Shown piece after piece: positions 2,379-44,986 of a stretch of 64,000 nucleotides of DNA. The stretch is from positions 2,749,330-2,813,329 of the forward strand of contig JAJEEG010000006.1 of the NCBI GenBank assembly GCA_022821085.1, read 5' to 3'. Made by a program: the position numbers and the translations under genes. The notes beneath the pieces were generated by a model. The model saw nothing but the letters and a program-made list of their open reading frames with translations, had not been told where the DNA came from and made no database searches. Position 1 is the stretch's first letter; each line of letters starts with the position of its first letter. The stretch is from Candidatus Latescibacterota bacterium. Lineage in GTDB: Bacteria; JAAXHH01.

Positions 2379-2828
2379 TCAGGCCACCCGCTCGATCCGG
2401 ACGCGTTTGACCCCTTCCCGCCGGATGCGGTAGCACACTTCGAAGAATTCGGTCGTATCGCCGATCATCCGGGCGAAGAGGTTCACCGCGACAGGGCCGT
2501 CCGGCATGTTGGGCCGTCCATCCCTGCCGTAGAACCAGCAAAGCTCGGTGATCCCGTCCAGCCACCCGTGCATGAGTCCGGGTTCCAAGCGGTAATAGCA
2601 GATATCTCCAGGGAGTGTGCGGCTCGTCAGGTTCTCGGGCGGGATGACGACGTCTTCGGACAGGAAGTAGGCGATCTCGCTGCCCGAGTAGACGGCGTGG
2701 ATGCTCTCTTCCTCCAGGGGCAGTGCGTCCCACACCGCCTGGCAGGTCTTCGGCGCTTCGTCCTCGAGCAGTTCGGCGTCGACCGACACGTCTTCGTCGA
2801 CGAATGTCAAACGGATTTTTCGAGGCAT
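2379..2828 (-). CDS. DUF3830 family protein (cyclophilin-like fold)
   Basis: This encodes 149 aa with no signal peptide or membrane segment, so it is cytoplasmic. The pattern (LTFVDEDVSVDAEL, then TCQAVWDALPLE, AVYSGSEIAYFL, PGDICYY, and WFYGRDGRPNMPDGPVAVN) matches DUF3830. Solved members of that family have a cyclophilin-like beta-barrel, and their activity is unknown. Length is normal for the family. It is acidic in its first half. It lies between the cytochrome-barrel gene and the first of two barrel genes, all on the minus strand, with no obvious functional link to either. In other genomes such genes often sit beside amidohydrolases and racemases, so a role in small-molecule catabolism is possible but not shown here. 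Confidence 0.75.
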   Translation of the reverse strand: MPRKIRLTFVDEDVSVDAELLEDEAPKTCQAVWDALPLEEESIHAVYSGSEIAYFLSEDVVIPPENLTSRTLPGDICYYRLEPGLMHGWLDGITELCWFYGRDGRPNMPDGPVAVNLFARMIGDTTEFFEVCYRIRREGVKRVRIERVA

Positions 2829-2880
2829 GGGCTGAACCAGAAGTCTTTGAAAGGTATCAGCACAACAGCACGAGGCTAAA

Positions 2881-3690
2881 CTACAACTTCATGAAGATCC
2901 CGATGTCCCAGGCCGGGGCGTCCAGCAGGTTTCGCGCGCCCGAGTACTTCGTCACACCCGCGGTGATTCCCGCGTTGGTCGTAATGTAGAAGTTGATTTC
3001 GGGACCGAAGGACACGTACTGCTGGTCGTTCACGGTCCATTCGTCTCCCGTACCGAGCGCTTTCACACCGCGTACCCACGCGGATACCCCGATGCGCTCG
3101 TCCATCATGAGACCCGCTTCCAGCGCGTACCTCAACTCGTCGGAAAAATCGCTCTCCCGGTTGTTGAAACCGATTTCTGCTTTAAGGTAACCCGGCGTCG
3201 GCCAGAGGGAATGGCCGACCTGGAGCGAGAACAACTGGTTGAATTCACCATCGCCGGTAAACAGGCCGACTTCCTGATCGGAAAAGGAATCTCCCAGCGG
3301 CAATCCGGCCATGACCTGGAGGCTCACGACCGTGGGCCTGTTTGTGAGCAATCCAATCCTGGCCCCGAGTTCCCAGTCCCCGGTACCCGCCTTCGTATTG
3401 GAACCGGGACCGTCTTCACTGATGCGCTGGTAGAAGGGTATATATCCGACCAGGGTAAAACGTTCGACGAGACCAAACTCACCGTACAGGCTGGTCGTAT
3501 ATCGGCTCTGGGCTGTTATAAGCTCCTTTTTTCCGGATGGCTTGAAATACGAATCGCTCTTGATCAATTGCTCGTTGAGCTTGAAATAACCCTTTCCTGG
3601 GGGTTGGGTCCATCCACCGGCGGAGGCCGTGCCGGCGGCTTGAAGGATAAACCCGGCGAGCAAGGCGACGGCAAGGATGAGTCTGGACAT
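2881..3690 (-). CDS. Outer-membrane beta-barrel protein (MetA-like), paralogue 1
   Basis: This encodes 269 aa with a signal peptide (MSRLILAVALLAGFIL, cleavage near TASA) followed by GGWTQPPGKGYFKLNEQL. The rest alternates hydrophobic and polar residues in strands with Gly/aromatic turns: SLYGEFGLVERFTLVGYIPFY, GDWELGARIGLL, VMAGLPLGDS, FSLQVGHSLW. It ends FMKL, fitting an outer-membrane barrel. The Shine-Dalgarno AAAGGATG lies just upstream of the ATG. It is closely related along its whole length to the gene at 3730-4554, which lies immediately upstream in transcription, so the pair is a tandem duplication. Cargo is unknown; annotated relatives are called outer-membrane transporters without evidence of substrate. 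Confidence 0.75.
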   Translation of the reverse strand: MSRLILAVALLAGFILQAAGTASAGGWTQPPGKGYFKLNEQLIKSDSYFKPSGKKELITAQSRYTTSLYGEFGLVERFTLVGYIPFYQRISEDGPGSNTKAGTGDWELGARIGLLTNRPTVVSLQVMAGLPLGDSFSDQEVGLFTGDGEFNQLFSLQVGHSLWPTPGYLKAEIGFNNRESDFSDELRYALEAGLMMDERIGVSAWVRGVKALGTGDEWTVNDQQYVSFGPEINFYITTNAGITAGVTKYSGARNLLDAPAWDIGIFMKL

Positions 3691-39433: not shown

Positions 39434-42400
39434 TTGAAGGAGACCGCGATCTTCAGCCAGTTCCATCCCGAAACATCTGAAACCCACCTTCTGCTGGACC
39501 GGTTGCTTTCCGAACGCATCCTCATCATCGACGGCGCCATGGGGTCGGTCCTCCAGGGCCATGCGCTCGACGAGCCCGATTTCCGCGGAGACACGTTTAA
39601 AGATCACCCCGTCCCGTTGCGTGGCGATCTCGACGTGCTGTCGATCACGCGTCCCGAACTCATCGAACAGGTCCACAGGGAATACCTGGATGCCGGCGCC
39701 GACATCATCGAGACCAACACGTTCAACGCCACCGCCATCTCGCAAGCCGACTATGGCCTGCAGGACCGGGTCTACGACATCAACCTGGCGGCTGCGAAGA
39801 TCGCAAAGCGCGCCACCGGGGCCGCCATGGCCGCTGATCCGGGCCGACCGCGATTCGTGGCCGGCGCCCTGGGGCCCACCACCCGGTCCGCTTCCGTCGC
39901 CTCCGATGTCAGCGATCCGTCCTTCCGTTCCGTTTCCTTCGATGAGTTGGCCACTGCCTACGGCGAGCAGGCCCGTGGACTCCTCGACGGCGGCGTGGAC
40001 CTGTTGCTGGTCGAGACCCAGATCGATACGCTCAACCTGAAGGCCGCCTTGTTCGCCATCAACAGCCTCTTCGACGAAGGGATGCGCCGCGTACCCCTCA
40101 TGGCGTCATTCTGCATCGTCGACGCCAGCGGGCGCACGCTCTCAGGCCAGACCGTGGAGGCGTGCTGGACGTCCATACGCCACGGGGACCTGTACAGCGT
40201 GGGGATCAACTGCGCGCTGGGCGCCACCGAGCTGCGGCCATACATCGAAGAGCTGTCCGCCATCGCGAACCTCCCGGTGACCTGCTATCCGAACGCGGGC
40301 CTCCCGAATGAAATGGGCGGCTACGACGACACCCCGGACCACATGGCCGAGGTGCTGGGAGGCTTCGCCGAAGAAGGCTGGCTCAACATGGTCGGCGGAT
40401 GCTGCGGCACGACCCCTGCGCATATCGCTGCGATCTCGGAGGCCGTAAGGCGGCGGGGGAAACTGCGCGTTCCCCACCCCGTCGAACCCCTGTCCCGGTA
40501 CAGCGGACTCGAGACCTTCACCGTACGTCCCGACGGCAACTTCACCATGATCGGCGAGCGGACGAACGTGACGGGCTCGCGCAAATTCGCCCGGCTCGTC
40601 CGTCAGGAGAAATACGAGGAAGCCCTGGGCGTGGCCCGGCAGCAGATCGAGGGCGGGGCGAACATCATCGACGTGAACATGGACGAAGGCCTGCTCGACA
40701 GCGAACGGGCCATGACCACGTTCCTGAACCTGATCGCGTCCGAACCCGACATCGCCGCCACGCCCGTCATGATCGACAGTTCCAGCTGGCCGGTCATCGA
40801 AGCGGGCCTGAAATGCGCGCAGGGCAAGAGTATCGCCAATTCCATCAGCCTGAAGGAGGGCGAGGAGGTCTTCAGGAACCAGGCCCGCATGGCGAAACGG
40901 TACGGGGCCGCCGTGGTGGTGATGGCCTTCGACGAGGAAGGACAGGCCACGGATACAGATCATAAGGTGGAGATCCTGAGCCGTTCCTACCGGATCCTCA
41001 CCGAAGAGATCGGCATGGATCCGACGGATATCATCTTCGACCCCAACATCCTCACCGTAGCCACGGGCATCGAGGAACACGACGACTACGCGGTCAATTT
41101 CATCGAGGCCGTCCTCCGGCTTAAGGCGCTGCATCCGCTGGCCAAAGTAAGCGGCGGCGTGAGCAACATCTCCTTCTCCTTTCGCGGCAACGACCATATC
41201 CGGGAGGTGATGCACGCCGCCTTCCTCTACCACGCCATCCAGGCCGGCCTGGACATGGGCATCGTCAACGCGGGACAGCTTGCGATCTACGAGGACATCG
41301 ACCCCGAGACACTGGCCATGGTGGAAGACGTCCTGCTGAACCGCAGGCCCGACTCCACCGAACGGCTGCTGGAGTTCGCGGCATCCAGTAAGGGTCCCGC
41401 GGCCGGAAGGGCAGCGAAAGACGATGCATGGCGCGACGACCGCCTGGAGGAACGCATTTCCCACGCCCTGGTCAACGGTATCGCCGACCATATCGTGGAG
41501 GAAATGGACGAGGCCCTCCAACGCTACGACCGGCCGCTCCATATCATCGAGGGGCCCCTGATGGCCGGGATGTCCATCGTCGGCGATCTCTTCGGCGAGG
41601 GGAAGATGTTCCTGCCGCAGGTGGTGAAAAGCGCGCGGGTCATGAAGAAGGCCGTAGCCCACCTGGTGCCGCACATGGAAGCCGAACACGGCGACACCGG
41701 AGAGCGGCAGTACCAGGGCTCCATCCTCCTGGCCACGGTGAAGGGGGACGTGCACGACATCGGGAAGAACATCGTGGGCGTGGTGCTCGGGTGCAACAAC
41801 TACCGGATCATCGACCTGGGTGTCATGGTCCCCGCGGAGAAGATCATCCAGACTGCGAAGGACGAAAGCATCGACCTCATCGGCTTGAGCGGGCTGATCA
41901 CCCCGTCGCTCCACGAAATGATCCACGTGGCCCGCGAGATCGAGCGCAACGGCTTTGAACTGCCCCTGCTCATCGGCGGCGCCACGACGAGCCGGAGACA
42001 CACGGCGATCAAGATCGAGCCGGCCTATCACGGACCGACCGTGCACGTGACGGACGCATCGAGAGCCGTGGAAGTGGCCGGGAACTTGATCAGCGACGAT
42101 CTGCGGCCGGAATTCGCCCGGCGTGTGCGCGAGGACTATCAGCAGATCCGGGAAACCTACGAAAGCCGCACGCCGCGCACGCCTCTCGTACCTTTCGCCG
42201 AGTCGAGCGCGCGGCGGCCCGCCCTCGAGTGGTCGGAGGAGACCGTCGCGGTACCCGAATTCACCGGGGTGCGCGTCGATGACGATTATCCGCTGGAGGA
42301 ACTCGTACCCTATATCGACTGGACGCCTTTCTTCAGCGCCTGGGAGTTGCGTGGGCGGTATCCGGCCATACTGGAGGACGAAAAGGTCGGCGTAGAGGCG

Positions 42401-43201
42401 CGGAAGCTGTTCGACGACGCGCAGGCACTGCTTGGCGAGATTGTAGATCGGCGGTCACTTCGGGCTCGGGCCGCGTGGGGGTTCTTCCCCGCCCATTCCA
42501 CTGGAAACGACATCGTGCTTTTAATCAATCCCGCGCGGTCGGAGGCACTCGCAACGTTTCCCATGCTGCGCCAGCAGCGGCCCCGTTCGGCGGACGGGCC
42601 CTGCCTCTCGCTTTCCGATTTCGTGGGCCCCGAGGGCAAGGAGGACTACGTCGGCGCCTTCGCGGTCACCGCCGGCATCGGTCTCGACGAGCTGGTCAGG
42701 CGTTACGAGACCGATCACGACGACTATCGCGCCATATTGGTCAAGGCGCTCGCCGACCGCCTGGCCGAAGCTTTTGCTGAGCTAACCCATCAAAGAGCTC
42801 GGCGCGCCTGGGGTTACGGGCACAATGAGGATCTTACGGGAGAAGACCTGATCCGGGAGAAATACCGCGGGATCCGGCCGGCGCCTGGGTATCCGGCCTG
42901 CCCCGATCACACCGAAAAACGCCGGCTCTTCGACCTGTTGCAGGCCGAGGAAAGGACCGGCGTCACGCTGACCGAAAGCTATGCCATGGACCCGCCGCCG
43001 TCGGTAGCCGGCCTCTACTTCGGCCATCCCGATGCCCGGTATTTCAACGTGGGGAAAATCGGACGCGACCAGGTTGAGGACTACGCCCGGCGCAAGCGGA
43101 TGACCGTCGAGTCCATCGAACGGTGGCTCGCGCCCAACCTGGATTACGAGCCGGCGGATGGTACCACGGCGGATGGTGTTACGGGGATTTCGAAGCGTTG
43201 A
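39434..43201 (+). CDS. metH: Methionine synthase, cobalamin-dependent
   Basis: This makes methionine from homocysteine and methyltetrahydrofolate through B12. About 1255 aa, all four modules present: homocysteine domain (residues 30-340, zinc Cys in GINCALGA and [11 protein letters not shown]), folate domain (to about 620, opening [16 protein letters not shown]), cobalamin-binding domain with [16 protein letters not shown] near 773, and the activation domain near the end ([19 protein letters not shown]). The His in DVHDIGKN is the lower B12 ligand. The start is unclear: the first possible codon is TTG at 39434, but a good GAAGGAGA lies over and just after it and points to the ATC at 39449; no ATG or GTG is available before the conserved region. 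The hairpin lies upstream. The gene is monocistronic. Confidence 0.95.
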
Positions 43202-43227: not shown

Positions 43228-43503
43228 TTATCCCACCGTAAACTGCAGCTTTTTACCGATCGCCTTGGCGTATTTACCGAGCGTTGACAACCGGATATCT
43301 TCCGCATGATTCTCAATCCTGGATATAGCGGATTTCCTGGTTTTCAACCTGCGTGCCACCTCTTCCTGGGTAAGGCCGGCATCTTCTCTCGCCTGTCGAA
43401 GCAATACGCCGATCTTGAACTCCTGGTATCCTTCATCGTATCTCTCGGCGAATTCCGTATCCTTGACCCTGCGATATGCCACGTATTCGCTCAAGTCGCT
43501 CAT
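43228..43503 (-). CDS. HigA-like XRE antitoxin
   Basis: This encodes 91 aa from the ATG at 43503 (MSDLSEYVAYRRVKD). The frame is open further upstream, but that region is the toxin remnant's other frame. A helix-turn-helix covers KIGVLLRQAREDAGLTQEEVARRLKTRKSAISRIENHA, followed by a short strand (GKKLQFTVG). It belongs to the XRE antitoxins that go with RelE/HigB toxins encoded immediately upstream. Here the toxin gene is shortened to 38 codons but keeps its ATGA overlap with this start. The antitoxin seems intact and may act alone or as a regulator. It lies just beyond metH, convergent, with only 27 bp between. Confidence 0.85.
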   Translation of the reverse strand: MSDLSEYVAYRRVKDTEFAERYDEGYQEFKIGVLLRQAREDAGLTQEEVARRLKTRKSAISRIENHAEDIRLSTLGKYAKAIGKKLQFTVG

Positions 43504-43616
43504 CGGTTTTTCCTTTTGAAAATGACTTTGGCTGCCTGTTTTGGGTCGAGAGCATCCAGAAAGTCGACGACAGGGCACTGACCCGATTCAGTACGATAGA
43601 AATGGACAGTTCTCAT
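43500..43616 (-). pseudogene. Truncated RelE/HigB-type toxin
   Basis: From the ATG at 43616 the frame reads MRTVHFYRTESGQCPVVDFL, then DALDPKQAAKVIFKRKNR, and stops: 38 codons. The first 32 residues match the N-terminus of HigB/RelE toxins, which normally run to 100-120 aa; the catalytic strand and C-terminal arginines are missing. The TGA overlaps the antitoxin ATG (ATGA), as in intact pairs, so it looks as if an internal deletion joined the N-terminal piece to the gene's last bases. It is too short to be listed as a standard gene. A functional leader role is possible. Confidence 0.75.
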
Positions 43617-43684
43617 ATTCTATGTTAACGAATATGTGAACCACAGGCAACCAGTTTTCCATAGTACCTCAAACACCCGCCCAA

Positions 43685-44338
43685 CTACCTGCTTAGCACC
43701 GCCGTGCCCCACGTGCTGGGGTCTACGTGAACGCGCAGGTCCCGTCCGGCGCTCCACCACTGGGCGGGGTATTCCGAATTGTTGAGGAAATAGGTGAAGC
43801 CCAGCCGGGGGAACTCTTTCGGGTCGTACCCGCTGAGGGTCTCGGTCGGGAGGCACACCTCCAGGGTGTAACCGCGGTCCGTGATCAGGGATGCGATGGG
43901 AAGCGCTTCCGGTTCCGGCATGTTCCACTTCTCGCGGGCGCGGTCGACCTGCGTGGGCTTGACTACGGGCTGATCACCGCGGTCGCCGCCCCCGGTGGGG
44001 AGGCAGTTGAACTGGTGGCAGTACCTTCCCGCCCGCCTGGCCGTCTTCACGTCGCGGGTGTCCAGCCAGACCTGGAAGCTGTCCCCGGTCCAGTGCCGTC
44101 CATAATGGGACTGGACCGGCTTTCGCTTGCGCACATCCACGGCGAAATACAGGCCCTCGTCGTTCCAGGCCATGTAGACGTCCGCGGCTTTCGGCCGGTT
44201 CTCCAGGAACCCCAGGTCGGGTACCAGGTATTCGGTATCCCAGTCGTCCAGGACGCCGTTGATCCGGGGAGCCTGCTCGCGGTATCTGCACTGGAAGGCG
44301 TAGGCGAAGTAGACTCGGTTGGGAATGTCCAGCGGCAT
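43685..44338 (-). CDS. CBM9-like (carbohydrate-binding family 9) single-domain protein
   Basis: This encodes 217 aa with no signal peptide. The fold pattern matches CBM9/DOMON-like modules: RINGVLDDWDTEYLVPDL near the start, then ADVYMAWNDEGLYFAVDVRKRKP, GDSFQVWLDTRDVKT, GYTLEVCLPTETLSGYDP and FPRLGFTYFLNNSEYPAQWWSAG. Such proteins bind carbohydrate or polyol ligands at extracellular enzymes. Freestanding, unexported copies are frequent in Latescibacteria-like genomes, where the role is unknown. Two related repeats occur in the protein at 52.2-54 kb. The gene is followed by ogt in the other direction of reading, across a tandem repeat. Confidence 0.75.
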   Translation of the reverse strand: MPLDIPNRVYFAYAFQCRYREQAPRINGVLDDWDTEYLVPDLGFLENRPKAADVYMAWNDEGLYFAVDVRKRKPVQSHYGRHWTGDSFQVWLDTRDVKTARRAGRYCHQFNCLPTGGGDRGDQPVVKPTQVDRAREKWNMPEPEALPIASLITDRGYTLEVCLPTETLSGYDPKEFPRLGFTYFLNNSEYPAQWWSAGRDLRVHVDPSTWGTAVLSR

Positions 44339-44422
44339 AGACGGTAGTCACATCGGGTAGCGCGTAATGGCAAACGCTTAATAGCAGACGCGCGGTAGAA
44401 AATGTCTGCAAGCCAGCGCCCG

Positions 44423-44474
44423 CAGCGGTCAGCGGTCAGCGGCAGCGGTCAGCGGCAGCGGCAGCGGTCAGCGG
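44423..44474. repeat. CAGCGGT/CAGCGG mixed tandem repeat
   Basis: This is a run of CAGCGGT and CAGCGG units on the plus strand (7 and 6 bp), which covers the last codons and the stop of ogt and the gap after it. The protein's terminal Asn-Arg and stop are partly encoded by the first unit. Confidence 0.8.
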
Positions 44475-44986
44475 TTGTAGTCCGTACCTTCCAGTTCGAG
44501 CAGAAACGCCTTGACCTCCGGCCGGCCGCCGTAGCCTCCCAGGCGTCCGTCGCTGGTGATCACGCGGTGGCAGGGCACCAGGATGCCGATGTCGTTGCTG
44601 CTGTTGGCCTGGCCCACCGCCCGGGCGGCCCGGGGTCTTCGCACCTGCTCGGCCACCCACTTGTAGGAACGCCACTGCCCGTATGGTATGGCCTGTTGCG
44701 CGGTCCAGACCTGCCGGGTAAAGGACGTGCCCCGCAGGAAATCCATCGGGAGGTCGAAAACCTTCAGCTTGCCTTCGAAATACCTCGTGATCTGGTTTTC
44801 GACCGAAGCAAGCAATCTGTCGTCCGGGACGAAGGCGAGTTCCGCGTCGAAGCGGTTCAGCATGTCCGTCGCGAATGCCTCGTCCGTGACGCCGGAGGTA
44901 ACCCGGCATACGCCCGCGTCACTGGCCGCCGCGTACATGGGACCCAGCGGCGTGGGGAAGACCGTATATTTAAGTACCTGCTTCAA
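44468..44986 (-). CDS. ogt: Methylated-DNA-protein cysteine methyltransferase
   Basis: This removes O6-alkyl groups from guanine in DNA onto its own cysteine. 172 aa, usual Ogt length. The catalytic motif VPCHRVI is in ILVPCHRVITSDGRLGGYGG near residue 140, with the upstream DNA-binding helix AQQAIPYGQWRSYKWVAEQV and RPRAARAVGQANSSN (Arg finger and Asn hinge). It starts at TTG (44986) 11 bp after the SGNH-gene stop, with only a weak Shine-Dalgarno, so it is probably translated by coupling with the hydrolase gene. No AlkA or Ada domain is attached. Confidence 0.93.
   Translation of the reverse strand: MKQVLKYTVFPTPLGPMYAAASDAGVCRVTSGVTDEAFATDMLNRFDAELAFVPDDRLLASVENQITRYFEGKLKVFDLPMDFLRGTSFTRQVWTAQQAIPYGQWRSYKWVAEQVRRPRAARAVGQANSSNDIGILVPCHRVITSDGRLGGYGGRPEVKAFLLELEGTDYNR

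Follow-up and report, generated by a model that had tools for sequence, protein, structure and literature searches.

Our analysis concerns a small two-gene locus in a window of 64,000 nt from a Candidatus Latescibacterota genome. It lies between a CBM9_1-like conserved gene encoding 217 aa (43685..44338, minus strand) and, on the other flank, a gene convergent with the antitoxin (39434..43201, plus strand), which from general knowledge of its sequence we take to be metH, encoding the cobalamin-dependent methionine synthase. The second gene of the locus encodes a full-length antitoxin of the XRE/HTH_3 type (91 aa; 43228..43503, minus strand). In Pfam this protein scores 47 bits against HTH_3 (cut-off 23) and 21.3 bits against HTH_37, under the cut-off of 27 for that family; HTH_37 presumably corresponds to COG5606, the kind of antitoxin found in Tad-Ata proper. 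Directly upstream is a toxin remnant of 38 aa (43500..43616, minus strand), whose translation, read from 43616 to 43500, is MRTVHFYRTESGQCPVVDFLDALDPKQAAKVIFKRKNR. Its TGA stop codon (43502-43500) overlaps the antitoxin ATG (43503) as ATGA, so that the HTH antitoxin lies immediately downstream of the toxin frame, and a purine-rich stretch of the antitoxin's own precedes this ATG. Upstream of the toxin start there is an operator-like site, GTTCAC-N6-GTTAAC (43624..43641, minus strand). An imperfect palindrome with 12-nt arms that are 92% complementary (43609..43641) overlaps both this site and the toxin start codon. Further out, short CAGCGG/TCAGCGG repeats occur in a run between two genes (44420-44475).

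An earlier note, made from the window alone, had described the 38-aa frame as about 32 toxin residues followed by a few unrelated ones, with a stop codon coupled to the antitoxin start. The position of the frame, its sequence and the coupling were all borne out on the minus strand. The note had also called beforehand for a comparison with intact pairs in relatives. In two genomes of the same genus, G006 and G009, an intact 116-aa toxin gene without internal stop directly precedes the antitoxin at the same locus. These two toxins score 70.5 and 73.8 bits, respectively, against PF05973 (Gp49; cut-off 23.9), and the G006 toxin matches HigB 6af3 by sequence with an E value of 1e-7; the placement of the toxin rests on such sequence matches. 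The remnant owes its identification as a toxin to the PF05973 matches of these orthologues, since a Pfam search of the 38 residues themselves returned no family at significance and no full-length PF05973 toxin stands at this locus in the window. Against the intact G006 protein the remnant shows 91% identity over 33 aligned residues, two of which fall at the junction. The reading of its N-terminal part as toxin thus stands (residues 1-31), while its tail is not foreign, as had been supposed: its FKRKNR corresponds to FMRKRR of G006 and to FKRKIR of G009, which is the C-terminus of the toxin itself, joined in frame. In the DNA alignment with the intact orthologues there is a single gap with homologous sequence on both sides. 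Relative to G006 it corresponds to a deletion of 234 bp, i.e. 78 codons (116 versus 38), in frame, and the 31 N-terminal codons that remain are little changed. When the remnant was searched against its own genome, no good match was found elsewhere, the one weak match (E 0.02) containing a stop codon. With no more than the beginning of the N-terminal part and the very end of the protein left, the remnant is not expected to fold as a nuclease.

These observations support the internal deletion that the earlier note had proposed, one that kept the junction and left an antitoxin without an active toxin. We consider it very probable that this is a degraded type II toxin-antitoxin locus, in which the toxin is dead through the in-frame 78-codon deletion and the antitoxin is probably still expressed and self-regulated. 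The ancestral arrangement would have been a toxin-first locus, with a toxin of the RelE/HigB superfamily (PF05973) followed by an HTH antitoxin. The deletion that disarmed it spared the operator-like site and the start region upstream; downstream it left the antitoxin's purine-rich stretch and start codon untouched. Because these flanking control elements remain in place, the antitoxin is in all likelihood still produced and continues to repress itself.

We compared the same locus in 12 genomes of the genus (G000 to G011, with G000 carrying the window). In all 12, the CBM9-like gene adjoins metH at one orthologous place, which fixes the syntenic position. A full antitoxin was found in 7/12 genomes and an intact toxin gene in 2/12. 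Full antitoxins without a working toxin thus occur in five genomes (G000, G001, G003, G010 and G005), and they do so with five different lesions. Both G000 and G001 have internal toxin deletions, which differ from each other; in G001 the remnant stops early, and its short ORF is a different one. The toxin frame of G003 is full-length, interrupted by a TAG codon. In G010 only the last 15 toxin codons remain, the operator is gone and there is no toxin start. G005 has no toxin, and a gene for an NYN-domain protein (PF01936) stands in its place. This gene (C39, about 2780-3412), of a PIN-like nuclease family, is separated at its end from the full antitoxin by about 50 nt and may be either a new partner or an unrelated insertion. 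With a full antitoxin, no adjacent full-length cognate toxin and intact pairs in relatives, the window carries an orphan antitoxin in the usual sense. In the remaining genomes the antitoxin is incomplete or missing. G002 and G008 have a VOC/glyoxalase-like gene together with the last 25 antitoxin codons. A VOC gene resembling theirs occurs in G011, accompanied by pieces of the antitoxin that were seen by eye (tblastn gave an E value of only 0.52). In G004 and G007 the site is empty of both genes of the pair. The locus is a natural series within one genus: intact, nonsense, two internal deletions, near-complete loss, replacement and empty site. As a separate observation, two branches of the genus carry the VOC/glyoxalase-like gene within remnants of the antitoxin, with the CBM9-like gene on one side and metH on the other, and the copies of G011 and G008 are about 91% identical, which suggests either a single insertion spread by recombination or repeated insertion.

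Since five different lesions are found in five genomes, the loss of the toxin was not one inherited event. In a tree of three flanking genes, G001 stands beside the intact G009, and G010 is placed near G002, G008, G003 and G006, with a support of 47 for the node joining G010 to G002 and G008. The deletion junction of G010 is probably common with G002 and G008; it was read by eye, and an alternative alignment places the sequence at antitoxin codons 37-46 with a 3-nt insertion. The variety of lesions also bears on the possibility that the deletion is an assembly error, absent from the organism. The earlier note had paired this idea with an intact toxin at the same position. The intact toxin does exist, in other species, whereas the differing deletions and the nonsense codon of other members argue against the error. 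In addition, the window lies within a contig of 2.87 Mb, the related G001 carries its different deletion in a contig of 2.5 Mb, and the alignment with the intact orthologues revealed no long repeat at the junction, so that we regard misassembly as highly improbable.

The earlier note had offered a second role for the 38-aa ORF, namely that of a functional leader peptide that sets antitoxin translation by coupling. In its favour, the deletion is indeed in frame and the ATGA overlap is kept; however, a third of random deletions would preserve the frame, and a purine-rich stretch belonging to the antitoxin precedes its ATG. Moreover, the upstream frame is not conserved. Of the seven genomes in which the antitoxin is complete, five have no intact toxin ORF, and they show five upstream states, including an early-stopping remnant (G001), a nonsense codon (G003) and no toxin start at all (G010 and G005). 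We found nothing that would support the leader in its own right and consider it very unlikely.

The operator-like site can be followed through the same series. An exact genome-wide search for GTTMAC-N6-GTTAAC in G000 gave a single occurrence, the one at 43624-43641. Within the genus the motif is present in 5/12 genomes, namely those whose toxin is intact, carries a nonsense codon or has an internal deletion, with one extra site elsewhere in the genome of G009; the exact motif is absent from the genomes of G005 and G010. More widely, the same spaced motif precedes the toxin in most intact pairs. Among the intact loci in named genomes, 46 of 47 were scored (one was left unscored): all 12 motif bases were present in 34/46 and at least 11 in 39/46, compared with 0/920 shuffles reaching at least 11, and the motif mostly starts 23-33 nt before the nominal toxin start. 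The antitoxin would thus be predicted to bind this site, and the locus supplies a readable operator-like motif for this antitoxin/toxin family. No sigma-70-like promoter was detected around the site when the sequence was scanned with a consensus, a result of little weight in this phylum, and one limited literature search found no paper linking a GTTAAC palindrome with an antitoxin.

To what extent is the order of loss seen here a general one? The best 80 relatives of the antitoxin in named genomes were surveyed, and 75 of them were assessable, after four loci at contig edges (L110, L142, L151 and L166) and one whose upstream sequence reads N (L105) had been dropped. The toxin was intact in 47 loci and not intact in 28, the latter comprising nonsense (9), frameshift (3), partial toxin (9) and no toxin (7). 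Three of the loci counted (L094, L095 and L096) are from the genus of the window. Two were scored as intact with some latitude: the toxin of L134 is without the usual start codon, and L135 has the same ORF length of 98 aa. The nonsense and frameshift cases (12/28) come from assembled metagenomes and may include errors of sequencing or assembly. In L122, as in the window, the toxin start and the operator-like site are kept and are followed by a short ORF ending over the antitoxin ATG. An operator-like site of at least 11 bases, at most 450 nt from the antitoxin, is retained in 17/28 loci without an intact toxin, compared with 39/47 intact loci and 1/1400 shuffles at the same threshold. By type of lesion, retention was 9/9 for nonsense, 2/3 for frameshift, 6/9 for partial toxin and 0/7 where there is no toxin. 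Five loci in Poribacteria (L104 and L106-L109) have full antitoxins without a toxin, and upstream of them is an ORF that was named by eye as a GNAT-like acetyltransferase.

A reverse survey starting from the toxin covered 385 genomes. The matches listed numbered 30, of which L188, L190 and L205 were excluded because they were incomplete or contained an interruption (the first two with a full antitoxin, the third without). All 27 full-length uninterrupted toxins among the matches listed have an adjacent antitoxin, an HTH ORF of 91-114 aa starting -4 to +39 nt from the end of the toxin match. The asymmetry between 27/27 (from toxin to antitoxin) and 47/75 (from antitoxin to toxin) gives a Fisher p of 4e-5, the two surveys comprising different genomes. 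A phylum-wide survey in both directions was tried around G055, in a phylum of three genomes only. The pattern, then, is that the toxin is lost first and outlived by its antitoxin. Decay would begin in the toxin because its loss can presumably be survived, whereas losing the antitoxin first cannot.

Do antitoxins outlive their toxins only by decaying second, or because they are still useful? The series at this locus lets one ask this question. The relatives of the antitoxin within the genus are 88-99% identical, and pairwise dN/dS is 0-0.113 over 21 genome pairs, the same range as for the neighbouring gene. The antitoxin is under purifying selection in the genus. When changes that could be placed on one branch were counted, branches that include time before the loss of the toxin, the synonymous/nonsynonymous numbers were 5/0 in G010, 6/1 in G000, 6/1 in G001 and 10/1 in G005, the last for only those codons on which four other genomes agree. 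If the neutral nonsynonymous fraction is taken as 0.72-0.78, so few nonsynonymous changes would arise with a probability of 0.0005-0.003 in G010, G000 and G001, and of less than 3e-5 in G005. The two genomes that retain an intact toxin look no more constrained, G009 having 10 synonymous and 4 nonsynonymous changes. The low dN/dS of the antitoxin in G000 may predate the toxin deletion.

Plain neutral decay caught early, in which the toxin was lost recently and the functionless antitoxin will decay too, is a real possibility, although we lean away from it. It accords with the little-changed toxin remnant of G000, which fits a recent deletion, with the antitoxin fragments kept beside the VOC/glyoxalase-like gene in G002, G008 and G011, and with the absence of any pair in G004 and G007. 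The G010 genome is the most telling on this point, since its junction looks shared with G002 and G008 (the alternative alignment mentioned above being the caveat): its antitoxin has probably lacked a partner ever since the split from these two, yet it shows no nonsynonymous change. The long branch of G005, with a constrained antitoxin and no toxin, likewise speaks against mere decay. A further idea is that the orphan antitoxin was co-opted to regulate other genes. Only 15 positions vary in amino acid among the seven full antitoxins, 12 of them within residues 1-23, and the HTH part is almost invariant, including in G010 and G005, which have no local operator. This would suit a regulator; however, in searches for exact matches G000 has a single copy of the operator motif, the one at this locus, and G005 and G010 have none, and we hold this reading to be unlikely.

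The antitoxin may be retained because it serves a purpose, for instance the neutralisation of related toxins, or it may simply not have decayed so far. If it is kept, the reason we favour is that it may neutralise related toxins arriving on incoming DNA. A bolder proposal, which we put forward tentatively and regard as rather doubtful, is that the antitoxin is a domesticated protective gene: in bacteria that share a community with carriers of the live pair, selection would repeatedly remove the toxin and keep the antitoxin, even after operator loss as in G010 and G005, to neutralise the live toxins of neighbours or to regulate something else.

Among known systems the locus most resembles the HigBA and Tad-Ata type II systems (RelE superfamily, COG4679/DUF891/PF05973, with an HTH partner). 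It shares their toxin-first order, overlapping or abutting genes, upstream palindromic site, toxin family (in the intact orthologues) and HTH antitoxin; it differs in that the toxin of the window is a remnant and that the antitoxin matches HTH_3, with HTH_37 only below cut-off. The Tad-Ata system has been described as a COG4679 RelE protein with a COG5606 HTH protein (PMC2701414). Decay of toxin-antitoxin loci starting with the toxin is already known, and this locus is a new and unusually clear instance of it. Orphan antitoxins derived from degraded pairs in which the toxin was lost first are described in Xanthomonas (PMC4861877). In Klebsiella, 2253 occurrences of orphan antitoxins are given, some in groups with inhibitory activity confirmed by the authors (PMC7192599). 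Orphan antitoxins have been reviewed (PMC7354431), and degenerating systems have been noted (PMC7167474). As in Xanthomonas, in Klebsiella and in the decayed ccdO157 of E. coli (cited in PMC2654758), here the toxin is lost or broken and the antitoxin kept in place, whereas the present case comprises several independent lesions at one syntenic site of one metagenome-assembled genus, with a readable operator-like site. The anti-addiction reported for ccdEch (PMC2654758) offers an analogy, being that of a chromosomal antitoxin which could neutralise related incoming toxins; unlike ccdEch, the present antitoxin is only a candidate for such a role, and viral contigs and plasmid records yielded no mobile source of a close toxin. 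The viral contigs searched contained no relative of the antitoxin, and L144, a distant member of the toxin family, matched 316 plasmid records, in every case at under 60% identity (best 52%). Type II systems in sponge Latescibacterota are mentioned in one source, in passages that give no detail (PMC12993501). The bacterium is related to lineages that published work places in sponges, and the present isolates may themselves come from sponges.

A second toxin within G000 was also considered as a partner of the orphan antitoxin. Two other PF05973-like matches occur in this genome, at 26.7 and 25.4 bits. A direct swap of partners is unlikely because each of these toxins adjoins its own HTH-like ORF, dissimilar to the antitoxin of the window; the two small RelE-like genes lie at 362080-362217 and 650579-650725 of contig C1 (L066 and L072).
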